A stretch of 37,337 nt of DNA from Pirellula staleyi DSM 6068 (GTDB lineage: Bacteria > Planctomycetota > Planctomycetia > Pirellulales > Pirellulaceae). Below are positions 5,138-37,337 of the stretch, one piece after another. The position numbers and the translations under genes were made by a program. The stretch covers positions 1-37,337 of the forward strand of contig CAMBSL010000027.1 in assembly GCA_945870455.1 (NCBI GenBank). Reading direction: 5' to 3'. Under the pieces are notes generated by a model that was given only the letters and a program-made list of their open reading frames with translations, was not told where the DNA came from and did no database searches. How positions within the stretch are numbered: the first letter of the stretch is position 1; each line of letters opens with the position of its first letter.

Positions 5138-6346
5138 TTATTTCTTGCGTTGGAATTCCTTGACCAACTCTGGAACCGAAATCCCTTGTGCTCCGCGTCC
5201 CTCGGTCAACCGAGCGTTAACATCTTCGCGAATCGTTTCCACATCAATTTCCCAGAATTTGGTAAGCATTTCTTTCGAGAGAGGCGTTGCTGACCGAACA
5301 AGTCTCATTCCAACCATGCGAGCAGGATCCGATGTGTACCACCATGGACTCAATGGAACGTTTGGATCTTCGATCTTCCAGTCTTCATCGACGGAACCCA
5401 TTCGAACAGCGGATCGAACCCGTTCTGCCGAGTCTTGCCAGCCCCCGCCCCGCACGCAGCGCGAGTCCGCTTCGGTGGGCCAGTGTGTGCCAGCTAGACC
5501 AGCGAAGGATTTGCCGCCTAGATCCCCAAAGCCTTTTGAGGAGAACTGGTCTATGGTCCATTCCCAAACATTACCGTGCATGTCGTGCAAGCCAAATGCG
5601 TTGGGGGCTTTGCTACCAACTTTGGCGGAACCCATTCCAGCGTTTTCCGAGTAGATCGCATACTTATCCAATTCCTCTACTTTATCTCCGAAGCAGTAGG
5701 CGGACTTGGAACCGGCGCGAGCAGCATACTCCCATTCCGCTTCGGTTGGGAGACGATACTGAACCCCTGTCAGGCCGCTCAACCATTTTGTGTATTGTTT
5801 GGCAGCGTATTGAGTCATTGTCACAGCGGGCTGTTGCGGGTCGTCACCATGCTCATAGGTATGGCTAGGATCGTAAAGCGGTGTTGGTACGGTCACCGCA
5901 TCGACTCCATTCGATTCCGTTACTTGTCGAATACCAGAAGAGGAGAGGTCTTTAAACACTCGGTAGCAACGCATGAACGTTTGGTACTCGGCCCAGGTCA
6001 ACTCGGTTTTCGCCATCCAAAATGGTTCGAGTTGGACGTTGAATTGGGGGCCCTCGTCTTCGCTGTGCCCCACCTCGCTTGCGGGTGAACCTATCTCGAC
6101 ACTCCCGCCAGGAACAGGAATCATTTCGAATTTAATGTTGGTGCGCTCTAATGATTCTGTGTAGGGAACCATGTACCCCCCTTTGCCATCGAGAAGAGTC
6201 ACGAATGGGCCGCTCTCCGGCTTGGTTCGGCTTATTCCAGGCAACTCCTTAGCTGTCGTCTCTTGCGCCTCGGTTGGTGCAGTGAGCATCGAGACCCAAA
6301 GCAAGCTGCAGCATAGGCAATGCAGCGAAGATATGCGGGATTTCAT
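5138..6346 (-). CDS. Secreted formylglycine-generating-enzyme-like (SUMF1 domain) protein
   Basis: The product, 402 aa from the ATG at 6346, begins with a signal peptide (basic start, hydrophobic stretch, 'APTEAQE'), so I prefer this start to the frame opening at 6526. The rest is an FGE-sulfatase domain: 'MIPVPGGSVEIGSP', 'LTWAEYQTFM', 'YRLPTEAEWEYAARAG', 'NAFGLHDMHGNVWEWT' and 'CVRGGGWQDSAERVRSAVR'. In true FGEs the RGGS segment carries two copper-binding/catalytic cysteines (RGGSYLCxxxxC); here the matching positions are not cysteine, so it probably does not convert sulfatase cysteine to formylglycine. Many planctomycete paralogues of this fold have unknown roles in the periplasm. The UbiA gene follows 10 bases downstream. 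Confidence 0.9.
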   Translation of the reverse strand: MKSRISSLHCLCCSLLWVSMLTAPTEAQETTAKELPGISRTKPESGPFVTLLDGKGGYMVPYTESLERTNIKFEMIPVPGGSVEIGSPASEVGHSEDEGPQFNVQLEPFWMAKTELTWAEYQTFMRCYRVFKDLSSSGIRQVTESNGVDAVTVPTPLYDPSHTYEHGDDPQQPAVTMTQYAAKQYTKWLSGLTGVQYRLPTEAEWEYAARAGSKSAYCFGDKVEELDKYAIYSENAGMGSAKVGSKAPNAFGLHDMHGNVWEWTIDQFSSKGFGDLGGKSFAGLAGTHWPTEADSRCVRGGGWQDSAERVRSAVRMGSVDEDWKIEDPNVPLSPWWYTSDPARMVGMRLVRSATPLSKEMLTKFWEIDVETIREDVNARLTEGRGAQGISVPELVKEFQRKK

Positions 6347-16033: not shown

Positions 16034-16990
16034 AATCCCACAGCGACGAAGCCAGCAACCAAAAAAACTCCTGCCAAAGTCGAGAAAGGCTTCGAAGAAT
16101 CGCTTTGGGATTCCGCCAACCGACTGCGTGGTAGCGTCGAATCGTCGGAATACAAACACGTTGTCCTGAGCCTGATCTTCCTGAAATTCGTTTCAGACAA
16201 ATTCGAAGAGCGCAAAGCTGCGCTGATCGCCGAAGACAAGCAGGCCTACACCGACATGGTGGAGTTCTACACGATGCAGAATATGTTCTATCTGCCCGAG
16301 ACATCGCGGTGGAGCCACATTCAGCAGCACGCCAAACAGGACGACATCGCTATCAAAATCGACTCGGCATTGGCTCAAGTCGAAAAGAGCAACGCGTCGC
16401 TCAAGGGAGCCTTGCCGGACAACTACTTTTCCCGGCTGGGGCTGGATGGCAGCAAGCTGTAGGCTTTGATCGATGCCATCAACAACATCGACACCTTCGC
16501 CGACAAAGAAGAAGACGTCGTTGGCCGTGTCTACGAATACTTCCTCGGAAAATCCGCAGCGTCCGAAGGCAAACTGGGAGGCGAGTTTTATACGCCCAAG
16601 TGCGTGGTGAATCTGATCGCGGAAATGATCGAGCCGTACAAAGGCAAGATCTACGATCCATGCTGCGGCAGCGGCGGGATGTTTGTGCAATCGCTGAAGT
16701 TCGTGCAATCACATCACGGCAACACCAAAGACATCTCGGTGTACGGTCAGGAGTTTACGGCCACGACGTACAAGCTGGCGAAGATGAACCTGGCGGTGCG
16801 AGGACTGTCGGCCAATCTGGGCGACGTTCCGGCTGATTCGTTCTTCAAGGACCAGCATCCCTGACTTGAAGGCCGATTACATCATGGCCAATCCGCCGTT
16901 CAACATGAAAGACTTGCGAGCGGCTGACGAACTGACCAAAGACTCGCGTTGGGACGGCTACACCCTCTCCGCGATTCTCCGCACCTCCGC
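16034..16990 (+). pseudogene. hsdM: Type I restriction-modification methylase HsdM, broken and truncated
   Basis: The reading frame starting near 16034 (after a TAG at 16031) encodes an HsdM N-terminus ('EESLWDSANRLRGSVESSEY', 'YKHVVLSLIFLKFVSDKFEE'). It is cut by a TAG at 16460-16462 in '[14 protein letters not shown]', then continues in the same frame through '[17 protein letters not shown]' and the SAM-binding motif '[14 protein letters not shown]'. A shift at about 16861 moves the frame by one base; from 16863 it reads '[17 protein letters not shown]', the catalytic NPPF motif. The gene ends abruptly after 'RWDGY' (about 16961), where the CTCCGC-rich repeat of the GxxExxY cassette begins. 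The last ~40% of HsdM and all of HsdS are missing. No product could methylate DNA. Confidence 0.9.
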
Positions 16991-17540
16991 CACTCCGCGT
17001 TAAAAACACATACGATGGAATATAAACGCGGAGACGCGGAGGAGCGGAGTTTCGCGGAGGGAAGATTAGAAGGGAAGACAAGAAGGTGAAAAAAGATGAC
17101 TGAGAACGAATTGACAGCGGCGATCATCGGTGCGGCGATTGAAGTGCATCGTCGCTTGGGACCCGGCTTGTTGGAAACCGTCTATCGTCGTTGCCTTGCC
17201 TATGAGCTTCGCAAGAAAGGTTTCGACGTGATCGAGGAAAAGCCGATTCCGCTCGACTATGATGATTTGCACGATCCTTGTGCCTTCCGAGCTGATTTAC
17301 TGGTCAATGGATTAGTCATCGTTGAACTAAAAGCCAAGGCAACTATTCACCCAATCGACAAAGCCCAAACACTTTCTCATCTTCGACTGATGAACCTGAA
17401 CGTCGGCCTATTGCTCAATTTCCACGAAGCAAAACTTACCGACGGCCTCCACCGCATCGTTAACAACTACAATGGCCCCAAGGTTTCCGAATAAGCCTCG
17501 CTCCGCGATTCTCCGCTCCTCCGCCACTCCGCGTTTAAAC
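16963..17540. mobile_element. Cassette: GxxExxY gene flanked by CTCCGC-rich repeats
   Basis: A ~42-base unit (ctctccgcgattctccgc…cactccgcgtt) at 16963-17006 recurs in direct orientation at 17496-17540 with few changes, and an inverted relative lies at 17023-17061. Between them is only the GxxExxY gene. The left repeat starts exactly where hsdM homology stops and the right one ends seven bases before the hsdR ATG. I infer a small mobile or recombinogenic unit; no transposase is present. Confidence 0.65.
17096..17494 (+). CDS. GxxExxY protein (PD-(D/E)XK nuclease-like)
   Basis: A 132-aa protein of the GxxExxY family. The name-giving motif is 'GPGLLETVY' (G-x-x-E-x-x-Y). It also has a PD-(D/E)XK-like core: Asp in 'FRADLLVNGLVIVELKAKA' followed by E-x-K, then 'DKAQTLSHLRLMNLNVGLLL' and 'NFHEAKLTDGLHRIV'. 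These residues are intact, so the fold could cleave DNA, but the function of the family is not established. A weak A/G-rich stretch (gaaggtgaaaaaag) precedes the ATG. It is the only complete gene inside the wreck of the type I locus, which suggests it arrived after or during decay. Confidence 0.85.
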   Translation: MTENELTAAIIGAAIEVHRRLGPGLLETVYRRCLAYELRKKGFDVIEEKPIPLDYDDLHDPCAFRADLLVNGLVIVELKAKATIHPIDKAQTLSHLRLMNLNVGLLLNFHEAKLTDGLHRIVNNYNGPKVSE

Positions 17541-17885
17541 CGTCGCCATGAAATTTACCGAAGCACAACTCGAAGCGGCCATCATCCAGCTACTGGGCGA
17601 AGTTGGCTATCCGCATGTGATCGGTGCTGCGATCAACCGTCAGCCTGACGAAGTCCTGATCAAAGAAGACCTGCGAGCCTATTTGTCGTCCCGGTATGCC
17701 GCAGATAACATCACCTCTGGTGAAATCGAATCGGTGATTCGGAAACTGACCGCGTACTCATCCGTCGATCTGTACGAGAGCAACAAAGCGATTATGAAGC
17801 TGGTCGCCGATGGATTCCTGCTCAAACGCGAAGATCGCAACTAAAAAGACTTGTATGTGCAGCTCATCGACTATTCAGCGTTAAC

Positions 17886-17957
17886 GTGGGATAGGCTGCC
17901 AGCCTGTCATCCGAGCAGCGTCGGTCAAGATCACAACAAGACGGAAGCCTATTCCAC
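17886..17957. repeat. 72-bp palindromic element inserted in hsdR
   Basis: The left arm 17886-17910 (gtgggataggctgccagcct then gtcat) and the right arm 17933-17957 are inverted relatives (about 17 of 25 positions match). The reverse complement of the left arm matches 24 of 25 bases at 36769-36793 and nearly as many at 29331-29355. The length, 72, keeps the hsdR frame open. Confidence 0.7.
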
Positions 17958-18634
17958 GGTTGTGGCTGAAAAATTGGGTAATTACCGAACCAACCACAAT
18001 CGATTCAAGCTGGTCAATCAACTAGAAATTGTGGGCAGCGAAAAACGAATCCCCGACGGCATTCTGTGCATCAACGGTCTGCCGCTGGTCGTGTTTGAAT
18101 TCAAAAGTGCGATCAAGGAAGAAGCGACGATTCATAACGCCTTCAAACAACTCACCATCCGTTACCGGCGAGACATTCCGGAACTGTTCAAGTACAACGC
18201 GTTTTGCGTGATCAGCGATGGTGTCAACAACAAAGCCGGTTCGCTCTTTGCACCCTACGAGTTTTTCTACTCGTGGCGGAAGACCGACGGTGGAGACTTG
18301 GTCGAAGTCGACGGCATCAACTCGCTGCACAGCCTGATTCAAGGCATGTTTCAGACGACTCGCTTGCTGGACGTGATTCGCAACTTCATCTTCTTTCCCG
18401 ACACGTCGCGCCGCGAAGAAAAAGTCCTCTGCCGGTATCCGCAATACTATGCTGCCACCAAGCTGGTTCAGAACATCCTGCTGCATATGCGGATCGAACC
18501 GAACGGCGACGGTGTGAATCCAACGGGCGACGGCAAAGGCGGAACGTACTTTGGTGCCACCGGTTGCGGCAAAAGCTATACCATGTTGTTCCTGACGCGG
18601 TTGTTGATGAAGAGCGTCGCTCTGGCCAGTCCAA

Positions 18635-18650
18635 CAATCGTCCAATCGTC
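18635..18650. repeat. Exact 8-bp tandem duplication causing a frameshift
   Basis: caatcgtc occurs at 18635-18642 and again at 18643-18650. Removing one copy restores the expected HsdR reading 'ASPTIVVITDRTDL'. Confidence 0.95.
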
Positions 18651-20834
18651 GTGATCACCGACCGCACCGACTTGGACGATCAACTGTCGGCTCAGTTCAC
18701 GGGTGCCAAGGGCTTTATTGGCGACGAAGCCGTGATCAGTGTCGAGAGTCGTTCGCAACTGCGCGAGCTGCTAAAGGGACGCAGCAGTGGCGGCGTGTTT
18801 CTGACCACGATCCACAAGTTTACCGAAGATGTCGAGCTGCTGACGAATCGCAGCAATGTGATTTGCATCTCGGACGAAGCGCATCGCAGCCAAGTGAATT
18901 TGGACCAAAAAGTGACCGTCACCGAAGAAGGGGTGAAGCGAACTTATGGCTTTGCAAAATACCTTCACGATTCGTTGCCCAATGCGAATTATGTGGGCTT
19001 CACCGGCACGCCAATCGATGCAACTTTGGACGTATTCGGCCCTGTCGTGGATTCGTACACGATGAAAGAATCGGTCGTCGACGAGATCACGGTGCCGATC
19101 GTTTACGAAGGACGAGCCGCCAAGGTTTTGTTGGACAACAGCAAGCTGAAGGAGATCGATGAGTATTACGCTCAGTGTGCCGACGACGGAGCCAGCAACT
19201 ACGCGATCGACGCCAGCAAAAAAGCCAACGTGCAAATGAATTCGATTCTGGGCGATCCAGGTCGCTTGAAATCGCTGGCCGCTGACTTTGTGCAGCGCTA
19301 CGAAGCTCGCATTGAGGAGGGCTCGACCGTGGCGGGCAAGGCCATGTTCGTCAGCAGCAATCGCACCATCGCGTTTGCGTTTTACAAAGAAGTTATCGCG
19401 CTGCGTCCGCAGTGGGGCGAAGTGAAGGTCTGTGCCGACGGAGAGCAACTGACCGAGCAGGAGAAGAAGGAGATTGCGTTGATCGAGCGAGTCAAAATGG
19501 TGATGACGCGAGGTCAAGACGACGAGGATGTCCTTTACCAAATGCTGGGAACCAAAGAGTACCGCAAGGAATTGGATCGGCAGTTCAAGAACCGAAAATC
19601 GAACTTCAAGATCGCGATCGTGGTCGATATGTGGCTGACCGGATTCGATGTCCCGTTTCTGGATTCAATGTATATCGACAAGCCCGTCAAGAAACACAGC
19701 TTGATTCAGACCATTTCCCGAGTGAACCGCAAGTACGAGCAAAAGCTAAAGGGTCTGGTGGTCGACTACATCGGCATCAAGAAACAGATGAATCTGGCAC
19801 TGGCCCAATACAGCAAAGGCGATCAGGGCAATTTCGAGGACGTGGCGGCGTCGATCCTGGTGGTGAAAGACCATCTGGATTTGCTAAGGGCGATTTTTCA
19901 CAGGTTCGACACGAAGCCATATTTCTCGGGCCAGCCGATGGAGCAATTGCACTGCTTGAACATGGCCGCGGAATTCGTGCAGGTGACAGAGGCACAAGAG
20001 CAACGCTTCATGAACCTAACCAAACGGATGAAGGCGGCATACGACATTTGTGTTGGCAGCGACGGGTTCACTCAAGACGAACGCGATCACGTGCATTTCT
20101 ATCTGGCCATCCGCAGCATCGTGTTCAAACTGACCAAAGGCGACGCGCCGGACATCGCTCAGATGAATGCCAAAGTCCAGAAGATGCTGGCGGATGCGTT
20201 GGCGAGTGATGGAGTCGAAGAAATTTTCAAGATGGGGCAAGGCGATACGGCACAGGTTGATTTGTTCGATCCAGACTACCTAGCGAAGATCGACAAGATC
20301 AAACTGCCGAATACAAAAATCAAATTGCTGCAGCAGTTACTCGCCAAGGCAATCGACTCGCTCAAGAAGGTCAATAAGCTGAAAGGAGTCGACTTTTCGA
20401 AGCAGTTCACCGCGTTGGTTGAAAAGTACAACGACCGCAGCGAGCACGATGTGCTTCAAAGCACGGTGCTGGAAGATTTCACGGATGAGATCATCGATTT
20501 GTACAATAAGATCCGCGAAGAACGGGAGTCGTTTGCTGGACTGGGAATCGATTTCGAAGAGAAGGCGTTCTACGACATTTTAAAAGCTCTGACGATCAAA
20601 TACGACTTTGAATACCCCGAAGAAAAACTGCTCGAGTTAGCCAAGAAGGTGAAAGTCATCGTCGATGACAAAGCCAAGTACACCGACTGGAGCCAACGCA
20701 ACGACATCAAGGCCGAACTCAAGGTTGATCTGATCATTCTTCTCGCCGAACACGGCTATCCGCCGATCGACCGCGACGAAGTCTACAAAGACATCTTCGA
20801 GCAAGCCGAGAATTTTAAGAAGTACCAGAAGTGA

Positions 20835-26772: not shown

Positions 26773-28530
26773 TCAGTCTGGCCCTCGTTTAACGGAATCA
26801 TTCCGTTCCAATTCGACCGAATGCATACTCGCAGCACTCGGAGAAAATGAACGCCAAATTTTTTGAGCATTTTTGCTCGGAACGCGGTCGGAGATGAGAG
26901 TGTCCAAGTCAGCCGAAGGTTTGGGGCTGAGTTCCGTCATCAATCGAGCAACGGAGCCACCTCGTAATCCTCGGATTTCTTGTTCAACCGTAAATCGGTT
27001 GAACGGCCCTGTCCGCATGCTTGCCGACAATGGAACCTCGACGGTGGAATAGGCTTCAAGCTTAATCTTGATACCTTGGACTAGATCGTCAACAAGCCCC
27101 AGATAGGATCCATGGTCATTCCAAACGGCAACAAAATCATGCGAAGCTCGTGCACAACAACGAAAGGCTCCCGTGGAATCCGATTGCTGCAAAATAGGGT
27201 TGGGGCAAGATAAGAAGTTCACCAAGGGATCCAGCCCTTTCGAGATAGGAATTAGGCCATGCGAGACAAACAATACGTTGGCCGCAGCCGCGCTTTCGCC
27301 ATCGGGATTCAAGACGAAAGCAAGGTCCTTTCGTTCCGGAAGAGGTTTCCGTAATCGAAACTCTTGCAATGGTTTTATGTCGGTTTTGTCATCTAGCTTG
27401 AACCGTAAACTTTCAAAACCTATCGCATGAATCGCAACTTCTTTGCATTCGTCGCGTGGTATGGACTCGATCGCAAACTGTCCATTCGTTCCTAAAATCG
27501 CATTTTTCGGAACGGATGTGATTAAATTCCATGGAACAAGTTCCTGTCTCAACGCCCGGTAGGTGGCGGCACTTGATTCGGGATTCTCCGGATTGTGGAC
27601 CACCATAAATCGATCGATCGGAGCGCCGGTTTCAGCGTCCAAAACTCGGCTTCCAAATTGAGAGGTAGGGTTGAGAACAATCGCCTGGGATCGAGCTCCG
27701 TCAACTTCGACTGGAATCCACGCATCGTGATAGCCAGACTTGGTGGCTTTGAAAACCAAGCGACCGATAGGAGCCTTGGACCAAATTACGTTCCCTTGTT
27801 GATTGGACTTTGCCGACCACTCGATCGCTTTCGAGTCCTCCCAACATTCCAAGGAAACGTCCACATCCTCCAACCCTTCACCGCTGGCATTGGCGAAATG
27901 GAGTTGGAGCGAGGTCGGCTTCTTGAGTTCAATCAAAAGCACATTCGTACTGTCGGAAATGCCATAGTCCTTGAAACCCGTCTCGCCGGAAGGCATAACG
28001 ACTCGAAGCTTTGCTCCGTTGCCTGCAACACCCCGAAAATCAAACCAACCTCGATTGTCGGAGCGTGTCATGAAATTAGCAGGCGAGAAGTACCTAGAAT
28101 CCTCGCTCGAGGAAATGAGTGCACCCTCAACCTCTCGGTCTTGATCGTCCACCACGTAACCTTGGACCGATTGGGCTGATTGCAGCTGTATTTCTTGCTT
28201 TTGGAAGACATCGAGCGGAATCGGTCGTGGAAGAGTACCAAATTTTCTAGTTTCCAGAACGTAGATCTTCGGATACTGCGAAACGTCCCATTGCCAATTT
28301 CCATTGAAATCTGTCTTGACGCGAATGCGCTCGATCTCGTCTTTGGACATGGATGGATCGAACAGCGATGGCACCAAGTCAACTCCGGCGATTGGCTTGC
28401 CATCTTCGTCAACGACAGTTCCAAACGCTCGGTACCGTTCGTTGGATTGCAATGTGGTTTCTTGTGAAAAAACGCTTCCAGAACAAAGCAGAAAGACGAG
28501 CAAGTAAAAGAAAGTGCGAGTTAGGAACAT
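26773..28530 (-). CDS. Secreted protein with carboxypeptidase-regulatory-like domains
   Basis: A 585-aa exported protein with a clear signal peptide ('FFYLLVFLLCSGSVFSQ'). Several beta-sandwich units of the carboxypeptidase regulatory type can be followed: 'AFGTVVDEDGKPIAGVDLVP', 'VQGYVVDDQDREVEGALISS', 'LQLHFANASGEGLEDVDVSL' and 'GSRVLDAETGAPIDRFMVVH'. Such proteins are usual in planctomycetes, often at the cell surface, but no catalytic domain is visible here. It ends 12 bases from the convergent PSCyt1 gene. The C-terminal segment after about residue 520 is low in recognisable motifs. Confidence 0.8.
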   Translation of the reverse strand: MFLTRTFFYLLVFLLCSGSVFSQETTLQSNERYRAFGTVVDEDGKPIAGVDLVPSLFDPSMSKDEIERIRVKTDFNGNWQWDVSQYPKIYVLETRKFGTLPRPIPLDVFQKQEIQLQSAQSVQGYVVDDQDREVEGALISSSEDSRYFSPANFMTRSDNRGWFDFRGVAGNGAKLRVVMPSGETGFKDYGISDSTNVLLIELKKPTSLQLHFANASGEGLEDVDVSLECWEDSKAIEWSAKSNQQGNVIWSKAPIGRLVFKATKSGYHDAWIPVEVDGARSQAIVLNPTSQFGSRVLDAETGAPIDRFMVVHNPENPESSAATYRALRQELVPWNLITSVPKNAILGTNGQFAIESIPRDECKEVAIHAIGFESLRFKLDDKTDIKPLQEFRLRKPLPERKDLAFVLNPDGESAAAANVLFVSHGLIPISKGLDPLVNFLSCPNPILQQSDSTGAFRCCARASHDFVAVWNDHGSYLGLVDDLVQGIKIKLEAYSTVEVPLSASMRTGPFNRFTVEQEIRGLRGGSVARLMTELSPKPSADLDTLISDRVPSKNAQKIWRSFSPSAASMHSVELERNDSVKRGPD

Positions 28531-28779
28531 GTTGTACGAGTATTTCCCGCTTAATTCAGGGGTGTGTGGTTGTTGTGCAGGAGCCTCCGGTCTGTTGGTC
28601 TCATGCTACCACTTTCCGTCCACACGTGCGAGCAACCCACACCCCGCCTTCGGCACCTACCTCCCTCGCGATGCCATCGCCCATGACGCCGACGCAATTC
28701 ACCGAATTAGCGATGGCCTCCACTTCTGCATCGAACAAGTTGCCGCGAACAACCTCGATCATTTACCGCTCCCAATCCC
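28531..28779. other. Gap without a convincing gene
   Basis: An open frame on the + strand runs from 28514 through this stretch ('RDAIAHDADAIHRISDGLHF') into the repeats at 28780 and 28880. It may be the relic of a gene, but nothing in it is recognised and its end lies entirely in repeat sequence. Confidence 0.4.
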
Positions 28780-28834
28780 AACCCGACGCATAAGCGAGGG
28801 ATTGCTGTCGGCTCCTCGCTCACGTGCACGGGTT
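28780..28834. repeat. Dispersed palindromic repeat, copy 2
   Basis: The second copy of the element at 4016-4069: aacccgacgcataagcgagg, a short loop, then cctcgctcacgtgcacgggt. A perfect 16-base palindrome cacgagcgcgctcgtg follows near 28847-28862. Confidence 0.85.
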
Positions 28835-28879: not shown

Positions 28880-29049
28880 CCTCATCTTTACCCACATTTC
28901 AGAACACGCTAAACTCGAACCGCCAATGGATCTGCGTGATCTCCGTGCGTTTTCTCCCCCTCGCCCCGCTTCGGGGAGAGGGGGTCGGGGGGTGAGGGGG
29001 AGAGCCATGACATGGTAGCCTCCGGTTCAGTTATTTGTTAACGCTTCGG
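28880..29049. repeat. Dispersed element, copy 3 (partial)
   Basis: Begins with cctcatctttacccacat, identical to the inner half of the left terminal repeat of the 295-bp element. It continues with actcgaa…aatggatctgcgtgat, a GC-rich hairpin with ggggggtgaggggg, and tagcctccggttcagttatt as in copies 1 and 2. The far end is missing. Confidence 0.75.
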
Positions 29050-29119
29050 GTTGTGATTGACATGGTTCTTTGAGCATCGATCATACAGGTTCCTCGACTA
29101 ATTCGTCTTCGGCTTCCGA

Positions 29120-29242
29120 TCAATCTGCTTCGCCTAGTTCTCTATCAGCAAGCTCGGCGGCTTCTTCAGCAATGTCGGCTGGTTGAGTGCCTGCGAATTC
29201 TCGGGTGTCCAGTCGATCATGGTCAAAGAGAAATTCTGTCAT
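29120..29242 (-). CDS. Small 40-aa reading frame, doubtful
   Basis: The frame reads 'MTEFLFDHDRLDTREFAGTQ' then 'PADIAEEAAELADRELGEAD'. It is acidic and helical, and the composition looks protein-like. In-frame codons continue after the stop (SEAEDELVEEPV). No family is recognised. It may be the relic of a larger gene. Confidence 0.25.
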   Translation of the reverse strand: MTEFLFDHDRLDTREFAGTQPADIAEEAAELADRELGEAD

Positions 29243-29254
29243 GGTTTCGTCGAT

Positions 29255-29300
29255 TCGATTACGAGTACGAGCACCGTTTCACTGAGCACGAGCACGGCCA
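29255..29300 (+). repeat. GAGTAC/GAGCAC-type repeat encoding EYEHRFTEHE-like tail
   Basis: One frame reads 'RFDYEYEHRFTEHEHGQCE'. Tails of this kind occur at the end of four-helix-bundle (S23-type) proteins in planctomycetes, so this could be the last scrap of such a gene. No helix-bundle domain is left upstream. Confidence 0.35.
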
Positions 29301-29475
29301 ATGCGAACGAGCCATTCGGCAAACTCCTAAATGACAAGCTGGAAGCCTATCCCACTGCCTTAGCATAGCCAATCGGGCAAGACACCAAGTGCCGGTAACT
29401 CAACCATTTGAACCTTTTCGATGGCGCTGATCGCCATCAATTGATCGAGCGCGATTTTGGGCGGAATGCCATCTA
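29301..29475. repeat. Left 175-bp direct repeat of the second island (duplicate serA 3' end)
   Basis: It matches 36739-36913 in the same orientation at 171 of 175 positions. On the minus strand 29360-29475 reproduces the last 38 codons of serA, including 'EKVQMVELPALGVLPDWL', with only Ser changed to Cys before the stop. Three of the four differences lie outside the coding part. Confidence 0.95.
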
Positions 29476-29727
29476 TTCATCCGATTCCGCATCATTCGAT
29501 TCAGCCGGCGCTCGATAAACATTACTGAGCGTCTGCCCGTGATCGTCCTTCCATTCGATCCAGCCATTGGCCGAACGACCGAGCACAACAGCGGCTGCGG
29601 TGCTAGGAGATGAGAATAGAAAATCTTGAGTGAAGATATACTCGCCATCGCGTTCTTCCATCACGCCCGATGCAATCAGCTTATCGCGTTGGCAGGTAGA
29701 TTTGAATTGTCTTTGCGGTTGCAGTGG
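29473..29727 (-). pseudogene. DUF4357 domain fragment at the left edge of the island
   Basis: The open frame encodes 'CQRDKLIASGVMEERDGE' and 'YIFTQDFLFSSPSTAAAVVL' followed by 'GRSANGWIEWKDDHGQTL', the DUF4357 domain found at the C-terminus of GIY-YIG nuclease-like and restriction-associated proteins. A TGA at 29728-29730 closes the frame upstream, so the N-terminal part is lost. Its own stop, TAG at 29473-29475, consists of the last three bases of the direct repeat, so the original C-terminus was cut at the junction. An inner ATG at 29664 could start a 63-aa peptide. The stretch from 29731 to 29831 shows only a weak TTGACT (29777) as a possible promoter element for the operon. Confidence 0.65.
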
Positions 29728-29831
29728 TCATTGTTTGAGGGGAAATGGTCGGTAAGGGCTGAATCGAGTACACTATTTGACTGCATTTCCAACGGTTCAG
29801 GTACTCCCATGTAGCCTATTTGTCAATTGCC

Positions 29832-32366
29832 ATGAATGAAGCCTCCGCCAGAATCAAGATTAATAAGCTGCTGGAGTCAGCGGGCTGGCGTTTCTTTGCA
29901 AATGCAAACGGCCCAGCTAATGTGCAACTTGAACCAAACGTTTCGTTGAAAGCTCAGGAACTCGACGCGCTGGGTGAGAATTTCGAAAGAGCAAGTAAAG
30001 GCTACATCGATTTCTTGCTGCTCAATGAGAAGAGTTTTCCATTTATTGTGTTGGAGGCTAAGTCTGAAGACAAGCACCCGCTCGTTGGAAAAGAGCAAGC
30101 ACGCAAATACGCCAAATCGCAAAACTGCCGATTCGTTATTCTATCTAACGGCAACCTCCATTATTTCTGGGACCTCGAGCGTGGCAATCCCTACATAATC
30201 ACATCATTCCCTACACCAACTTCGGTCGAGGGTTATGAAAAGAGTGTTCCTGATCCCAAACGATTGGTCGAAGAGATTGTCGCAGACGATTATGTTGTAC
30301 TCACCCAACGACCAAATTATGCTTCCGAAGCCGCATGGAAGAACGAGAGCGAGCGCCAGCAATTTATAACCGTTAACGGCCTTCGTTTTCTCAGGCCCTA
30401 TCAGAAGAAAGCGATGTTTGCGGTTCAGGACGCTGTGAAACTTGGCCACGATCGGTTCTTGTTGGAGATGGCCACAGGAACCGGAAAGACCCTCACGTCT
30501 GCGGCGTTGATTAAACTCTTTCTTCGCACGGGAAATTGTCAGCGAGTATTGTTCCTTGTGGACAGGCTGGAACTCGAGGACCAAGCGTTGAAGGCGTTCA
30601 AGAAGACGCTCGCCAACGACTACAAAGCGGTCATTTACAAAGAGAATCGAGGCGATTGGCGTCACGCAGAGATTGTTGTTTCCACAGTTCAGTCGCTGCT
30701 TTTTAACAACAAATATCAAAGCCATTTCTCTCCAACCGATTTCGATCTGGTTATCTCAGATGAAGCACATCGCTCGATTGGCGGAAACGCAAGATCGGTA
30801 TTCGACTTCTTTGTTGGATACAAACTTGGATTGACAGCTACGCCTCGCGATTACCTCAAGAAGTTTGACAAGGAGGAATCAAAATCAAAGGACCCTCGCG
30901 AACTTGAACGCCGACTATTGCTCGACACCTATCGAACCTTCGGATGCGATAATGGATTACCAACCTTCCGGTACTCGCTACTCGACGGCGTGAAAGAAGG
31001 TTTTTTGATCAGCCCAACAGTCGTCGATGCAAGGAGTGGTGTTACGACTAAACTCTTGGCAAAGGAAGGGTTCGTGGTCGAGTTCAAGGACGATCAAGGG
31101 GGGGACAGCAAGGCGATCTACAAACAGCGGCAATTCGAAAAACAATTCTTCTCCCCTGCAACCAACCAACTCTTCTGCAAGACCTTTCTCGAACACTCGC
31201 TTCGCGATCCAGTGAGCGGCGAAGTCGGTAAGTCCATCGTGTTTGCAGTTAGCCAGTCTCACGCGGGTAGGATAACCGAGATCTTTAACGAGATGGCGCA
31301 TCGGATGTTTCCTGGTAAATATCAGTCGGATTTCGCGGTGCAGGTAACATCCGATGTGGATTTGCCTCAGCAACTCTCAATCAATTTCACGAATAACAAT
31401 TTACTTGGCTCGGGCAACTTCATTCCTAACTACAAAACGAGCAAAGCGAGAGTGTGCGTAACCGTCGGAATGATGACCACGGGATACGACTGCCCAGACA
31501 TCTTGAACCTCGGATTGTTCCGTCCCGTTTTTTCCCCAACGGACTTTATCCAAATCAAAGGACGCGGTACTCGCAAACATGACTTCCGGGAACAATTGTT
31601 TGATGAAGCAATCAAGGAGAATGTAGCTTTGCCCAACAAGGTGACCTTCAAGCTTTTCGATTTCTTTGCCAACTGCGAGTACTTCGAAGACGAATACGAT
31701 TACGACCAGGTCTTAAAGCTCCCACAACCGAAATCGACTCCAGAGGATGGTGGCGATACCGGTGGCGGCACACCGCGCACGGTAACTTACGAGCACCTGG
31801 GCGGAGATATTCTCGACACCATCAAAGAAGAGATTATCGGTGTCGAGGGAATGAAGATCGATCGCATGTTCTACGAGAAGTTCGAAGAACGAATACGCGT
31901 CAATCAGTTCATCGCTTCCAGCGTCGAAGCAGGCCAGTGGGATCGCGTGATAGATTACGTGAATACCGAGCTCTTTGGGAAACCAGACGAATACTATTCA
32001 CTCGACAAGCTCCGTAAAGCAGCGGCAGTCGATCGGCGGCTAAGCTTGCGAGAGATCTTGGAAAAGGTCTTTGGACTCATTCCCCGTTTCAAATCAAAGG
32101 ATGAGTTACTCGAGGAAGAGTTTGCTAAATTCGTTGCTGATTGCAAACCGGACGAAGCCGAAGCCATTCCAGCCATCAAGACCTATTTCAAAGCCTACGT
32201 CACCAGCGACCTAGTTCGACACATCATCGACTCAGGCCAACTCACGGATCTCGCAACGAATCCGGTTTTTTCAACGAAGGACTTTCGGGCCGTGCCCGCC
32301 AAGTATCGTCCGCTGGTGCCAGCGTACGTCAAGGATTACGTTTCACTAAATCGTTTCGCAGCATGA
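29832..32366 (+). CDS. hsdR: Type I restriction endonuclease subunit R (EcoEI-like HsdR)
   Basis: An 844-aa motor/nuclease subunit. The order is: PD-(D/E)XK nuclease with 'IDFLLLNEKSFPFIVLEAKS' (about residues 59-78), then helicase Walker A 'EMATGTGKTLTS' (about 212), 'VISDEAHRSIG' (about 308) and 'LGLTATPRDY'. These are followed by motif V/VI 'MMTTGYDCPDILNLGLFRP' and 'FIQIKGRGTRKHDF'. The C-terminal EcoEI-type domain is complete ('SDLVRHIIDSGQLTDLATNP'). It would translocate and cut unmethylated DNA with HsdM and HsdS. I start at the ATG 29832; a TTG four codons upstream is open. The TGA overlaps the ATG of the KilA-N gene. All motifs are intact, unlike the first island's hsdR. Confidence 0.94.
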   Translation: MNEASARIKINKLLESAGWRFFANANGPANVQLEPNVSLKAQELDALGENFERASKGYIDFLLLNEKSFPFIVLEAKSEDKHPLVGKEQARKYAKSQNCRFVILSNGNLHYFWDLERGNPYIITSFPTPTSVEGYEKSVPDPKRLVEEIVADDYVVLTQRPNYASEAAWKNESERQQFITVNGLRFLRPYQKKAMFAVQDAVKLGHDRFLLEMATGTGKTLTSAALIKLFLRTGNCQRVLFLVDRLELEDQALKAFKKTLANDYKAVIYKENRGDWRHAEIVVSTVQSLLFNNKYQSHFSPTDFDLVISDEAHRSIGGNARSVFDFFVGYKLGLTATPRDYLKKFDKEESKSKDPRELERRLLLDTYRTFGCDNGLPTFRYSLLDGVKEGFLISPTVVDARSGVTTKLLAKEGFVVEFKDDQGGDSKAIYKQRQFEKQFFSPATNQLFCKTFLEHSLRDPVSGEVGKSIVFAVSQSHAGRITEIFNEMAHRMFPGKYQSDFAVQVTSDVDLPQQLSINFTNNNLLGSGNFIPNYKTSKARVCVTVGMMTTGYDCPDILNLGLFRPVFSPTDFIQIKGRGTRKHDFREQLFDEAIKENVALPNKVTFKLFDFFANCEYFEDEYDYDQVLKLPQPKSTPEDGGDTGGGTPRTVTYEHLGGDILDTIKEEIIGVEGMKIDRMFYEKFEERIRVNQFIASSVEAGQWDRVIDYVNTELFGKPDEYYSLDKLRKAAAVDRRLSLREILEKVFGLIPRFKSKDELLEEEFAKFVADCKPDEAEAIPAIKTYFKAYVTSDLVRHIIDSGQLTDLATNPVFSTKDFRAVPAKYRPLVPAYVKDYVSLNRFAA

Positions 32367-33184
32367 CAAAATCTAAAAAATCAACGATTGACGTCCAGGG
32401 AACAGCAATCGCAATCATAACCAACGCGGAGGGTGACTACATCTCACTAACCGATATGTTACGAGCCAAGGATGGTGAGTTTTTTATCTCCGACTGGCTC
32501 CGAAATCGCAATACTGTCGAGTTTCTTGGGATTTGGGAGTCCGTTTTCAATCCTGCTTTTAATTATGGCGAATTCGCCACAATTAAAAGTCAAGCAGGTC
32601 TGAACAGCTACAAGATCAGCGTGAAAGAATGGGTTGAAAAGACAAACGCCATTGGTCTGAAAGCCAGTCCTGGTCGATATGGTGGCACGTTCGCCCATCC
32701 AGATATCGCCTTCGAATTTGGCATGTGGATCAGCCCTGAATTCAAAATTTATCTCGTCAAAGAATTCCGACGCCTGAAGGAGGACGAGAACAACCGTCTC
32801 CATCTCGGCTGGAATCTCCAACGTACCCTGGCAAAAATCAATTACCGCATTCACACCGACGCAATCAAGGAAACCTTGCTCCCTGTCGCGATTACCAAAC
32901 AACAGGCGTCCTATGTTTACGCAAACGAAGCCGACCTGCTCAATGTGGCTCTCTTTGGACTGACCGCAAAGCAATGGCGTGAAGCAAATCCTGATGCTGA
33001 AGGCAATATCCGCGATCATGCCCCTCTCGAACAACTGGTGGTTCTGTCCAATCTAGAGAGTCTGAACTCTGTCCTCATCAGGCAGGGCTTATCACAACCA
33101 GAGCGACTTCAAAAGCTCAACGAAATTGCGATTACACAAATGCGCACGCTCCTCTCTGACAACAACTTGAAACGACTCAAATAG
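32363..33184 (+). CDS. KilA-N domain protein in the type I operon
   Basis: A 273-aa protein with an N-terminal KilA-N domain ('ISLTDMLRAKDGEFFISDWL', 'NRNTVEFLGIWESVFNP', 'GGTFAHPDIAFEFGMWISPE', 'FKIYLVKEFRRLKED'). This fold is common in phage and plasmid regulators and binds DNA. The C-terminal half is helical and unrecognised. The ATG at 32363 overlaps the hsdR TGA, and the gene is followed after three bases by the hsdMS ATG. KilA-N genes do occur within type I operons; the role there, possibly regulation or DNA-end control, is unproven. Confidence 0.88.
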   Translation: MTKSKKSTIDVQGTAIAIITNAEGDYISLTDMLRAKDGEFFISDWLRNRNTVEFLGIWESVFNPAFNYGEFATIKSQAGLNSYKISVKEWVEKTNAIGLKASPGRYGGTFAHPDIAFEFGMWISPEFKIYLVKEFRRLKEDENNRLHLGWNLQRTLAKINYRIHTDAIKETLLPVAITKQQASYVYANEADLLNVALFGLTAKQWREANPDAEGNIRDHAPLEQLVVLSNLESLNSVLIRQGLSQPERLQKLNEIAITQMRTLLSDNNLKRLK

Positions 33185-33187
33185 CTG

Positions 33188-35618
33188 ATGCTTGATTCAG
33201 ATACCAAACGCCGTATTGATACCGCTCGTGACATTCTTGTTGGGAAAGTACCCGACCCCCAAGTCGCAAGTTGAACAGATTACGATTGCTCTCATCTACA
33301 AGTTCATGGACGACATGGATGCCGAAGCCGAAGAGCTTGGCGGCAAGCGTAAGTTCTTCACTGACAAATTTGCCCGTTATGGCTGGGCTAAGCTGATGTC
33401 GCCATCGTTGGGTGGGCATGAAATGCTCGGCCTGTATGGCGAGGGCATTTCCAAGATGCCGGAAAACCCCGGCATTCCAGCTCTCTTCCGCGACATTTTC
33501 AAGAACGCCTACTTACCATACCGCGATCCCGAGACGCTAAAGGCGTTCCTGAAGATCATCAATGAATTCAGTTACGATCATAGCGAGCGACTTGGCGACG
33601 CATTCGAGTATCTACTCAGCGTTTTGGGATCGCAGGGGGATGCTGGTCAGTTCCGCACGCCACGTCACATCATCGATTTCATGGTCGAGGTGCTTGCGCC
33701 GCAGAAGAATGAAACAGTACTTGACCCAGCATGCGGAACTGCTGGATTTTTGATTTCGGCTTATAAGCACATTTTGAAGGCCAACAAGGACAAGAAAGGG
33801 AACAGCACGCTCACGCCCGACGAGAAAGGTCGCATTGCTAAGAATTTTAAGGGCTATGACATCTCGCCTGATATGGTGCGTCTTTCCCTTGTAAATCTCT
33901 ACCTCCACGGTTTCACCGATCCGCACATTAACGAATACGACACATTGACGTCTGAGGAACGCTGGAATGAATTCGCCGATGTCATTCTAGCTAATCCACC
34001 TTTCATGTCACCGAAAGGCGGAATCAAGCCGCACAAGAGATTCTCTATTCAGGCCAAGCGAAGTGAAGTCCTGTTTCTCGACTACATGGCCGAACATCTT
34101 ACGCCCACTGGCCGAGCTGCCGTCATCGTTCCCGAGGGGATCATCTTTCAGAGCCAAACGGCGTACAAAAAATTGCGGAAGTTGCTAGTCGAAAACTCGC
34201 TTGTCGCCGTAGTGTCACTTCCCGCCGGTTGTTTCAATCCATACTCCGGCGTGAAGACCAGTATTCTCATTCTTGATAAATCTCTTGCACTACAAAGCGA
34301 AACAGTTGGCTTCTTCAAGGTAGTGAACGATGGCTTCGGTCTTGGTGCACAGCGCCGCGTTATCGAGAAGAACGACCTCCCGCAAGTACAGGCCGCGCTG
34401 GCCGCCTACCTTCATGCCTTACGCTCTAAAACGTCCACTGAGTCGGTTCTCGGCCTAACATCCAGCGCTCAAATTGTTCTAAAGGATAAGATCGCAACAA
34501 ATGGCGACTACAACCTTAGTGGCGAGCGGTATCGGGAAAATCGGGAAGCAAGCTCAACTCATCCATTTGTCGCGCTCGGCGACGTATGCGAAATCTATCA
34601 ACCAAAAACCATCACCCAACAGGACCTAAAAGAAGACGGGGCTTACGTTGTTTACGGCGCGAACGGTGTGATTGGGCGGTATGACCAATTCAATCATGAG
34701 TTCCCAGAGGTAATTGTAACTTGTCGCGGCGCGACTTGTGGAACTCTGAATTATTCGCAAGCGAAGTCATGGATTACGGGCAACGCGATGGTGTTCTCGC
34801 CAAAGGCCGGAACGCTTCTGAAAGAATTCCTGTACCAAATTCTCAAGTATTCAGACCTGTCTTCAACGATCTCCGGCTCAGCTCAACCTCAGATTACGAG
34901 ACAGAGCATCGCTCCATTCCAAATCCCACTGCCGCCGCTGGAGGTGCAAAAGGAGATCGTGGCGGAGATCGAAGGATACCAGAAAGTCATCAATGGCGCC
35001 AGCGCGGTCCTCGACCACTACCGCCCCCATATCCCCATCCACCCCGACTGGCCGGTTGCTGAACTTGGTGACGTTTGTGAATTCACACAAGGGGTTCAAA
35101 TCCCCCAAAGCGAACAAATCAACGAGCCTCGAGTCGGCTATGAACGCTACCTCTACATTCAAGATTTCAAGGGGCAGGGAAAATCGATTTACACCAGAGG
35201 TGACTACCCGAACAAGAGACTGACTGAGGAAGACATTGTTATGGCGAACACTGGTTCGCCAGGCCGAGCGTTTCTCGGGCAGTCGGGAATCCTTAGTAAC
35301 TATCTATTCCGAATTACCTTCGACCGTAGTCGTGTAACACAAAAGTTTTTGTTCACGCACCTCGAAAGTCAATCGTTCCAAGTGGTGCTGCAATCGCAGA
35401 TGAAAGGTGGAATCCAGAAACATTTGGGACACCAAACCATCGCAATTCAGAAAATCCCCCTCCCACCACTCGCTACGCAGCAAGCCATCGTGGCGGAGAT
35501 CGAATCCGAGCAAGCGTTAGTAGCCGCTAACCGCGAACTGATCGCACGTTTCGAGCAAAAGATCCAAGCCACTCTTGCCCGTGTCTGGGGCGAAGCTATT
35601 CCAGGAACGAAGGTATGA
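33188..35618 (+). CDS. hsdM: Fused HsdM-HsdS (methylase plus specificity) with a one-base frameshift near the start
   Basis: The gene should start at ATG 33188 ('MLDSDTKRRIDTARDILVGK', the usual HsdM opening). The frame breaks at C5 (33256-33260), where one C too many is present. Downstream 'KSQVEQITIALIYKFMDDMD' continues in the other frame, open to 35618. An alternative TTG at 33192 opens the downstream frame but replaces the conserved N-terminus. Further on are the methylase motif I 'VLDPACGTAGFL' (about residue 177) and motif IV 'VILANPPFMSPKGG'. The HsdS part follows, with two target-recognition domains starting 'FVALGDVCEIYQPKT' and 'WPVAELGDVCEFTQG' and the conserved 'IPLPPLEVQKEIVAEIE' and 'IPLPPLATQQAIVAEIE'. 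Fusing M and S in one ~810-aa chain is unusual but known. Confidence 0.9.
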
Positions 35619-35833
35619 TCATGGACACTTTTCGTTGTTGGGAGCACGATCTCCGGAACATCGCAATGTTTAACGAAAACGCACATAACGAAGAGCCGTC
35701 GGGTGCGCCCGTTCGGTTGGCCCTCGCTAGCTATTTGCTCCTACGAGCGAGCTTTGTGGCCGAAACGATCGAATCCAGATTGTTTGATCCTCCCCAACTT
35801 ACTATAGACCTCTCGGATGGAGGTGAATCATGA
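35615..35833 (+). CDS. 72-aa protein of unknown function in the type I operon
   Basis: I do not recognise this product ('MIMDTFRCWEHDLRNIAMF' … 'ASYLLLRASFVAETIESRLF'). It is probably a soluble, mostly helical small protein with one amphipathic stretch. Its ATG overlaps the hsdMS TGA and its own TGA overlaps the start of the DUF3037 gene, so it is translated as part of the operon. A second ATG two codons in is also possible. It could be an antirestriction-type regulator, toxin or adaptor; nothing in the sequence decides this. Confidence 0.7.
   Translation: MIMDTFRCWEHDLRNIAMFNENAHNEEPSGAPVRLALASYLLLRASFVAETIESRLFDPPQLTIDLSDGGES
35819..35825 (+). promoter_or_regulatory. Strong Shine-Dalgarno sequence (GGAGGTG) for the DUF3037 gene
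   Basis: It lies 4 bases before the ATG at 35830, inside the end of the 72-aa gene. Such a good SD is rare in this window and supports both the 35830 start and separate translation of the last gene. Confidence 0.7.
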
Positions 35834-36648
35834 ATCCAGTTAAAGGCCATTACAGCATCGTTCAGTATTGCCCTGATCTCGCTCGCCGTGAGACGGTTAA
35901 CATTGGCGTTGTCCTGCTCGTACCGGAACGCGGGTTTTTGCAAACCCGAATGGTTGCCGACAACGAGCGTGTTCGTCATTTCTTCGGAACCACCGGGGAC
36001 GATGCAAAACTGCTGAGCGATTTTAAAAAGAGCTTCTCTGCTCGGATCGAAGCCGAACATGGTCGTGTATCCACGCTCGAAACGTTTTGGAAGTTTATTG
36101 ATACACGCGCTAACCAGATTCAGCTAACGGAACCGGCGTTCGTCAAAGTTCGAGAATGCCAAGAGACAATCGAACAATTGTTTGCACAATTGGTCGGTGG
36201 TAAGGCTAAGTCGCACAAGCGAGAGTCATCAACGAAGTCGTTGCTGACGCGATTCGTTGCAGGTAACGTGGCGGATCTTATTGAGACGAATGTTCCGATC
36301 TCGGTACCCATTCTCGATCGTGAGACAAGAGTCCCTTTTGCCTTCCAAAACGGTGCGTTTCATTTATTGCAGCCAGTCACATTTACACCGGATGCGGAAG
36401 AGTCGAACTTCAATCGCGCTTTGAAGTACTCGATGGAGGGCAAGATTCTTCAAGAACACCCAGACGACGAATATGGCCCGTTGAAGTTTAATGTGATTGG
36501 GCGTTTCGCCAGCATGTCCGATCCATCGATCCCAATCGTCCGTAAAGTGCTCGCCGAATCCAAGGTACGGTTACATCTAGACCATGATCTTTCGGGCTTA
36601 CTTGACGAAATACGCCGAACGGGAAAGCAACGAACCAAACGCGCATAA
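35830..36648 (+). CDS. DUF3037 domain protein in the type I operon
   Basis: A 272-aa protein whose N-terminus has the DUF3037 signature 'HYSIVQYCPDLARRETVNIG' followed by 'VVLLVPERGFLQTRMV'. DUF3037 proteins usually lie next to a HipA-like kinase gene; here no HipA is present and the neighbour is a 72-aa unknown. The C-terminal half is helical and rich in basic residues. The ATG overlaps the preceding TGA. Function is unknown; its place as last gene of a restriction operon suggests an accessory defence or regulatory role, which is inference. Confidence 0.8.
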   Translation: MNPVKGHYSIVQYCPDLARRETVNIGVVLLVPERGFLQTRMVADNERVRHFFGTTGDDAKLLSDFKKSFSARIEAEHGRVSTLETFWKFIDTRANQIQLTEPAFVKVRECQETIEQLFAQLVGGKAKSHKRESSTKSLLTRFVAGNVADLIETNVPISVPILDRETRVPFAFQNGAFHLLQPVTFTPDAEESNFNRALKYSMEGKILQEHPDDEYGPLKFNVIGRFASMSDPSIPIVRKVLAESKVRLHLDHDLSGLLDEIRRTGKQRTKRA

Positions 36649-36738
36649 CAAAGAGCCGCCGTGTTCTCGACGCACGACGGCTTGAAACATAGATCAACCA
36701 AATTGTCCAACATCAGCAACGGCACCCTGCCTCGGTGT

Positions 36739-36913
36739 ATGCGAATGAGCCATTCGGCCAACTCCTAAATGACAGGCTGGAAGCCTATCCCACTGCCTTA
36801 GCTTAGCCAATCGGGCAAGACACCAAGTGCCGGTAACTCAACCATTTGAACCTTTTCGATGGCGCTGATCGCCATCAATTGATCGAGCGCGATTTTGGGC
36901 GGAATGCCATCTA
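36739..36913. repeat. Right 175-bp direct repeat of the second island (serA 3' end)
   Basis: It is the counterpart of 29301-29475. Its coding part (36798-36913) is the genuine 3' end of serA. The non-coding part carries the half-site atgacaggctggaagcctat (36769-36788) that is related to the palindromic element in the first hsdR. Confidence 0.95.
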
Positions 36914-37337
36914 GATTGAGAACTCCGATCGCGTGACCGCCAGGTTGTTGTGTTGCCCGTCCTACCGACATTTGGCCGATGTTCACTTGATGTTGACCGA
37001 ACACGGTTCCAACGCGGCCGATAATACCAGGTACGTCCGTGTGGGTGAAGAAAAGCATGTGTCCGTCGAGGTACGCTTCCAATCGATAATCGTCGATCGA
37101 AATCAATCGGGACATGTTGTTCCCAAAGACCGTGACACCTGCTTTGACACGTTGACCGCTCCCGCTTACTTCCGCCGTGATCGACGAGCTAAAAGCACCC
37201 AGTTCTCGATTTCGATTTTCGGTCAATTCAATACCGCGTTCTCTCAACAGCATCTCAGAGTTGATGATGTTGACGTCGTCGGCCATGGCTTTTTCCAATA
37301 GCCCTGCACAGAAAGAAGCATTCAGTAGCTTCGTGTC
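36798..37337 (-). CDS. serA: D-3-phosphoglycerate dehydrogenase, C-terminal part (runs off the window)
   Basis: The last 179 codons of a SerA-type enzyme, which oxidises 3-phosphoglycerate in serine synthesis. The visible part covers the allosteric substrate-binding segment ('ASFCAGLLEKAMADDVNIIN', 'SEMLLRERGIELTENRNREL') and the C-terminal ACT regulatory domain ('MLFFTHTDVPGIIGRVGTVF', 'GQHQVNIGQMSVGRATQQPG', 'GHAIGVLNLDGIPP'). The frame is open to the window edge, so the start and catalytic domains lie beyond 37337. Its 3' end is contained in the right direct repeat and is duplicated at 29360-29475. Confidence 0.93.
   Translation of the reverse strand, partial: DTKLLNASFCAGLLEKAMADDVNIINSEMLLRERGIELTENRNRELGAFSSSITAEVSGSGQRVKAGVTVFGNNMSRLISIDDYRLEAYLDGHMLFFTHTDVPGIIGRVGTVFGQHQVNIGQMSVGRATQQPGGHAIGVLNLDGIPPKIALDQLMAISAIEKVQMVELPALGVLPDWLS

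Follow-up and report, generated by a model that had tools for sequence, protein, structure and literature searches.

We analyzed a 37,337-nt stretch of Pirellula staleyi DSM 6068 DNA (the window), which is the whole of one contig (C27) in a genome assembly (G000) of 386 contigs that is 92.5% complete. The right-hand end of the window holds the 3' part of serA (36798–37337, minus strand), a 179-residue frame with the PGDH_inter and ACT domains that runs past the contig end and continues on a second contig (C157), whose 59-nt overlap with the end of the window is 100% identical. A 175-nt sequence at the true serA 3' end (36739–36913, plus strand) comprises the last 116 nt of the gene (36798–36913, minus strand) and 59 nt past its stop codon. 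The same sequence occurs at 29301–29475 (plus strand), where the 116-nt serA 3' end (29360–29475, antisense) is again accompanied by 59 nt of serA downstream sequence. The first-pass annotation had described the two copies as 175-bp repeats in the same orientation that agree at 171 of 175 positions and carry the serA 3' end, and our measurements returned the same values [identity 171/175, direct orientation, spacing 7438 nt, longest identical run 110 nt]. One difference between the copies lies in the serA part (in the left copy, non-synonymous) and three lie in the 59 nt beyond. Judging from the sequence, the 110-nt identical run would make excision of the island via the repeats possible; no excised form was observed.

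The interval between the repeats contains a type I restriction operon consisting of hsdR (29820–32366, plus strand; ResIII and HSDR_N_2 domains, with homology from about codon 5), a KilA-N gene (32141–33184, plus strand; PADLOC candidate PDC-S22) and a fused hsdM-hsdS gene (33192–35618, plus strand; N6_Mtase and two Methylase_S stretches). The KilA-N gene is matched from residue 79 on, so its true start probably lies just after 32366. All three type I subunits (R, M and S) are present according to Pfam and PADLOC, and the NCBIfam matches of HsdR and HsdMS all fall below the curated cut-offs. HsdR has some match in 122 of 241 family genomes; close homologues of the operon occur in two of the 241, which belong to two other genera (HsdR 76% and 66%). 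In those two genomes the DNA similarity extends over hsdR and some parts of hsdMS, omits the KilA-N gene and does not reach outside 29828–35594, which indicates that the operon travelled separately from the repeats. Elsewhere in the window (16309–20834) is a second, apparently decayed type I system, with an hsdM fragment (16508–16861), a PDDEXK_3 gene (17096–17494) and an HsdR split over two overlapping frames (17851–18654 and 18204–20834).

The ~7.3 kb between the repeats had initially been read as one type I operon, and this description proved incomplete. Next to the left repeat is a degraded GIY-YIG/DUF4357 gene (29473–29730, minus strand) that retains its initial 44 nt and its final 73 residues; 618 nt have been lost internally, with 5 nt shared at the deletion junction (29687–29691). 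On the right, a remnant of a HipA-like kinase gene, its final 44 codons with the stop included (35701–35833, plus strand), precedes an intact DUF3037 gene (35830–36648, plus strand), the kinase gene being truncated 133 nt before its end at the right cargo breakpoint. PADLOC scored the DUF3037 product as PDC-M66B. With the kinase gene cut to 44 codons, the intact DUF3037 gene has the appearance of an orphan antitoxin-like gene.

A related genome, G016, carries repeats of the same kind (178 bp, 97.2% alike, 7.2 kb apart) around different genes. Its order is serA, a segment 95% identical to window positions 35701–37337, the different genes, and then a segment matching window positions 29305–29691 at 96%. 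The genes between the G016 repeats encode a GIY-YIG/DUF4357 protein of 303 residues, an N6_N4 methylase, a ResIII helicase, a HipA_2 kinase of 285 residues and a DUF3037 protein, to which that of the window is 96% identical. The kinase and DUF3037 genes are thus adjacent in G016, while the window keeps the 3' remnant of HipA; the G016 HipA was not scored as M66. PADLOC assigned the G016 methylase to type III (E 2e-69) and gave the helicase weak type III scores (E 3e-8). The methylase gene (L030 5386–6672, contig C101) carries a TAA stop within a motif that we take to be DPPY, and from its sequence the type III-like Mod-Res system is probably dead, Mod being broken by the stop.

The cargo of G016 explains the fragments in the window. 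At the left cargo breakpoint, homology to G016 stops at a GTG (L030 7270) where homologues of the GIY-YIG protein also start to match, and this GTG is probably the GIY-YIG start codon. G016 reads through both cargo breakpoints of the window, and not vice versa, which sets the direction of change from the older cargo to the type I operon. Since G016 has the same repeats around other cargo, and the window bears the scars of that cargo, the repeats predate the type I operon. The proposal that the type I operon is what integrated here is therefore not upheld. The first-pass annotation had also named a left copy produced by an unrelated duplication older than the operon as an observation that would count against its reading; the left copy is indeed older, as G016 and the scars indicate, but it is not unrelated to the origin of the island.

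On the left, the older cargo meets the repeat at the GIY-YIG stop codon TAG, and a TAG stands at the same place in serA; because the C-terminal tails of the GIY-YIG proteins of G016 and of another genome, G054, are equally long, the join falls at the gene's own stop. The three shared nucleotides are weak evidence by themselves. On the right, the distance from the end of DUF3037 to the join is 90 bp in the window and 86 bp in G016. In G054 the HipA-DUF3037 genes and the GIY-YIG gene lie within ~3.2 kb of each other with no Mod-Res; its HipA gene has one internal stop (codon 209), so G054 is informative about gene order and not about a working pair. G176 also has the HipA/DUF3037/GIY-YIG trio, with distant HipA and DUF3037 (34–35% identity), and a G006 stretch has HipA-DUF3037 without GIY-YIG.

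The G016 assembly bears on whether the structure could be a metagenome mis-assembly at the 175-bp repeat, a concern raised by the window being one of 386 contigs and ending inside serA. The two window copies differ at four sites, and G016, assembled separately, has the same architecture with its own differences; we regard mis-assembly as hardly credible. In an alignment of the four repeat copies, both window copies agree with each other against both G016 copies at columns 35 and 101, and no column groups left with left and right with right. These two sites hint at gene conversion between the repeat copies within each genome.

The repeat pair is distinct from the dispersed repeats of these genomes. 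A search with the 175-mer in the window genome gave at least 11 matches (40 of 47 first-look candidates scored), namely both copies and nine short matches of 24–33 nt, and it gave none in a further 35 stretches taken from G000, G016 and G009, a second relative (579,454 bases in all). Repeats found in control stretches were dispersed elements in all five cases, with 13–31 matches in 5–9 of the 35 stretches, so the serA repeat pair is neither a chance occurrence nor a common dispersed repeat. Two repeats found at other RM loci were low-copy as well (2–3 matches). The nine short matches all map to query positions 29–64, a palindromic stretch at and just past the serA stop. This palindromic element (window 29329–29364 and 36767–36802), which thus recurs at nine other places in the window genome, perhaps belongs to what we take to be a REP-like family. 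In G009 and G016, genes resembling Y1 transposases lie nearby.

The comparison with related genomes that the first-pass annotation had proposed shows the site without an insert in G009. On one G009 contig (C88), serA, its 3' flank and the outer flank of the island (F1) are contiguous. Positions 5762–6112 and 6111–6286 of this locus (L031) match G016 L030 8151–8503 and 9057–9232, the outer flank of the left repeat, with 90.1% identity across 354 nt, a span that includes the serA tail, and 98.9% across 176 nt, respectively. In the window, part of F1 lies at 29041–29156 (no strand assigned) and in G009 it adjoins the true serA. The initial proposal that DNA entered beside the serA 3' end, leaving the gene whole on one side and a duplicate tail on the other, is borne out by this empty site.

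Farther out, the window contains a 5' remnant of a macro-domain (DarG-like) gene (28668–28801, minus strand), which is longer in G009 (176 residues), and a flank gene with a CarboxypepD_reg domain (26773–28530, minus strand) that is the neighbor on the far side of the locus in G016 and G009 as well. Among 27 genus genomes, close relatives of the flank gene were found in G016 and G009 only (79% and 92%); paralogues at 39% occur in all three genomes, and G006 gave one 26% match. The neighborhood of the flank gene is conserved on G009 C21 and G016 C38. By eye, the end of C88 and the start of C21 in G009 appear to be the two termini of a single insertion sequence (with ends like TTTGAAGTTGCGCTATTTT), which seems to separate the two contigs. 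In G016 an uninterrupted segment (L030 9057–9989) spans L031 6111–6286 plus L032 148–913, with 9 nt in common, which indicates that C88 and C21 are joined in G009; the 9 nt would be the target duplication of the insertion sequence. A further flank segment (F2), which may be the tail of a gene for a four-helix-bundle protein (23S IVP-like), was considered as a dispersed repeat and rejected, a search of the window genome giving one 24-nt match besides itself. Window positions 29241–29300, in the left flank, are shared with the flank of the G009 tail copy (see below) and absent from G016, a distribution that the species relationships leave unexplained and that counts against the history preferred below.

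Further along C21, G009 carries a Y1 transposase-like gene, the macro-domain (DarG-like) gene, HigB and an M78 gene in the HigA position, and it contains a second serA tail of 270 nt (L032 3738–4007) that is 92.8% identical to the G009 gene over 320 nt. The window and G016 lack most of this module; their macro gene ends after ~95 nt and joins the region upstream of the flank gene. The 14 differences between the 270-nt tail and the gene are all at third codon positions and 12 of them are synonymous, one of the other two falling at the junction codon. A comparison of G009 serA with window serA, made as a control, gave 5 differences at first codon positions, 0 at second and 24 at third. Differences restricted to third positions are unlike those of a drifting pseudogene. 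They suggest that tail and gene in G009 were probably both functional, in different lineages, while they diverged, which favors the view that a related strain supplied serA-linked DNA. This argument concerns the G009 tail; the differences between the window's own repeats are too few to tell.

We consider it likely (probability approximately 0.8) that defense genes were inserted beside serA without an integrase, with duplication of ~180 bp of target, and that the restriction genes inside were replaced afterwards. The ancestral order would have been serA followed by F1, as in G009. Before the lineages of G016 and the window genome parted, a cassette that began with GIY-YIG and finished with HipA-DUF3037 would have entered beside serA. 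This would have left a whole serA with its tail next to DUF3037 and a second tail (116 nt of serA plus 59–62 nt) next to F1. Later, the type I operon would have replaced Mod, Res and most of HipA in the window, and GIY-YIG would have been damaged. For the insertion step the structure is observed and the direction is assigned by parsimony, and the whole history draws on three genomes, all of them fragmented assemblies; it is also conceivable that G009 once had the island and lost it.

Several other routes to the same structure were considered. In one, the serA end was duplicated locally first and defense genes were inserted between the copies later. The 270-nt tail of G009, with other genes before serA, indicates that serA tails do duplicate in this group. 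Among 40 genomes searched (the window genome included), 33 of which had a serA match, a second tail was found in three (window genome, G016 and G009), always with cargo between; two serA matches in G031 are adjacent pieces of one gene and were not counted. This constant association with cargo, and joins that fall at a gene's stop codon and 86–90 bp past DUF3037 in the window and G016, make duplication before insertion unlikely. A circular intermediate carrying a 3' piece of serA that entered the chromosomal serA through one homologous crossover would, from the anatomy of the locus, give the same final structure and need no integrase. It would require a separate origin for the serA piece on the circle; viral_contigs contained no serA relative, and the 63 plasmid records that match the island match it in part, all at 60–80% identity and none covering 80% of the query. 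We think such a circle quite unlikely.

A classical integrative element, in which a recombinase acted at an att site at the serA 3' end, the element restored the gene end and the integrase was later lost, would account for the position at a gene 3' end, the direct repeats, the restored gene and the empty site in G009. The first-pass annotation had reported no visible integrase, and our scan agrees: Pfam identified no integrase or transposase among the island ORFs scanned in the window and G016 (short ORFs being partly covered). It had also suggested that an integrase acting in trans might have moved the island. PF00589 has 2 matches in the window genome, 13 in G016 and 14 in G009. Both window-genome matches, presumably XerC and XerD, lie on other contigs and have counterparts of near-equal score in both relatives. 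As far as PF00589 matches show in a genome that is 92.5% complete, we rejected an integrase in trans. The serA tails are of different length [116 nt in the window and G016, which share one event, and 270 nt in G009, which may represent another kind of event], and 175–178 bp is long for a recombination core. An integrative element is thus very improbable.

For the insertion without an integrase that we prefer, we infer that one side would most likely have joined by homologous exchange in serA, a related strain being the source of the DNA, and the far side by end-joining at short homology. A donor with the cassette beside serA and a single tail was not found among the genomes examined.

A wider reading is that the serA 3' end in this clade is an integrase-free acceptor used repeatedly, each defense module leaving its own tail, with the tails kept alike by gene conversion while cargo is exchanged. 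The tails of unequal length that accompany different cargo (116 nt where RM genes are present, and 270 nt beside the macro-HigBA genes of G009), the third-position-only differences in G009 and the two repeat sites at which copies agree within a genome support this reading, which we rate as rather improbable. There is no broad hotspot at the serA end in the nine relatives scanned. A genus-wide hotspot was rejected on the basis of 10 downstream ORFs in these relatives (the first listed ORF of at least 80 residues in eight of the nine, the third in G020), none of which is an RM gene: the matches were OEP, cellulase, AICARFT, TIM barrel, cytidylyltransferase (two ORFs), IF-2B, a weak TPR and, for one ORF, nothing, and the remaining ORF (G024) encodes an AbiEii/DUF6036-like nucleotidyltransferase. 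No serA lies beside homologues of the window's 829-residue neighbor gene in stretches of G020, G021 and G023.

Other RM loci were surveyed for direct repeats (at least 60 bp, 85% identity, 1 kb apart) in 27 stretches, 25 picked from 43 RM rows plus L030 and L032, and in 10 controls. Such repeats were found in 3 of the 27 RM stretches, one being the G016 island itself, versus 4 of the 10 controls, and the 27 RM stretches yielded no second clear case of a repeat-flanked insertion. The other two repeats measure 146 bp (89%, L118) and 114 bp (92%, L121). The former (L118 947–1092 and 6351–6496, on G016 C192) is a direct repeat with copies 5.4 kb apart beside an RM locus. Its sequence resembles the end of an HsdS gene, and it is possibly a similar duplication.

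The original papers on restriction-gene insertion with long target duplication are reportedly those of Nobusato et al. 2000 (Gene 259:99) and Furuta et al. 2010 (NAR 38:2428). In later accounts, RM genes inserted with long, variable target duplications are described in Helicobacter pylori, where the insertions were inferred by genome comparison (PMC3874152, PMC3031569, PMC4978471, PMC1643837). The serA locus resembles these insertions in its long direct repeats (175 bp, 97.7% in the window; 178 bp, 97.2% in G016), in the existence of a relative with a single target copy and no insert there (G009 C88), in its RM cargo (type I in the window, type III-like Mod-Res in G016), and in having no transposase or integrase among the island ORFs scanned. 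Our literature search gave no matching case of a planctomycete restriction island with direct repeats, and one may exist in print. Homology-facilitated illegitimate recombination, as outlined in PMC3240628, combines one homologous and one illegitimate side; we propose that it would give the structure seen here.

The locus shares with integrative islands at gene 3' ends the direct repeats containing the gene end and the restored gene, and differs from them in that no integrase was found at the locus and perhaps in the unequal tail lengths (116 versus 270 nt). HipA kinase and DUF3037 have been described as a defense pair in which DUF3037 is the likely neutralizing partner, according to two reports (PMC13092281, PMC12548924). 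G016, with its adjacent HipA_2 and DUF3037 genes, is like these systems (HipAD / DS-6 / PDC-M66), unlike the window, where the last 44 codons of HipA remain; the locus thus displays a DUF3037 gene orphaned by the loss of most of its kinase gene. As in type I RM systems, the window encodes a predicted HsdR, N6 methylase and two specificity stretches; unlike the usual arrangement, M and S are fused and a KilA-N gene (PDC-S22) lies between R and MS.

The serA locus adds a well-resolved example to the known insertions with long target duplication. The empty site, the older cargo and the newer cargo are seen in three related genomes, which makes the order of events readable: the repeats came with the first insertion and persisted when one restriction system was exchanged for another. 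The serA locus differs from the Helicobacter cases in that the cassette adds HipA-DUF3037 and GIY-YIG, in that the RM genes were swapped afterwards, and in its planctomycete host.
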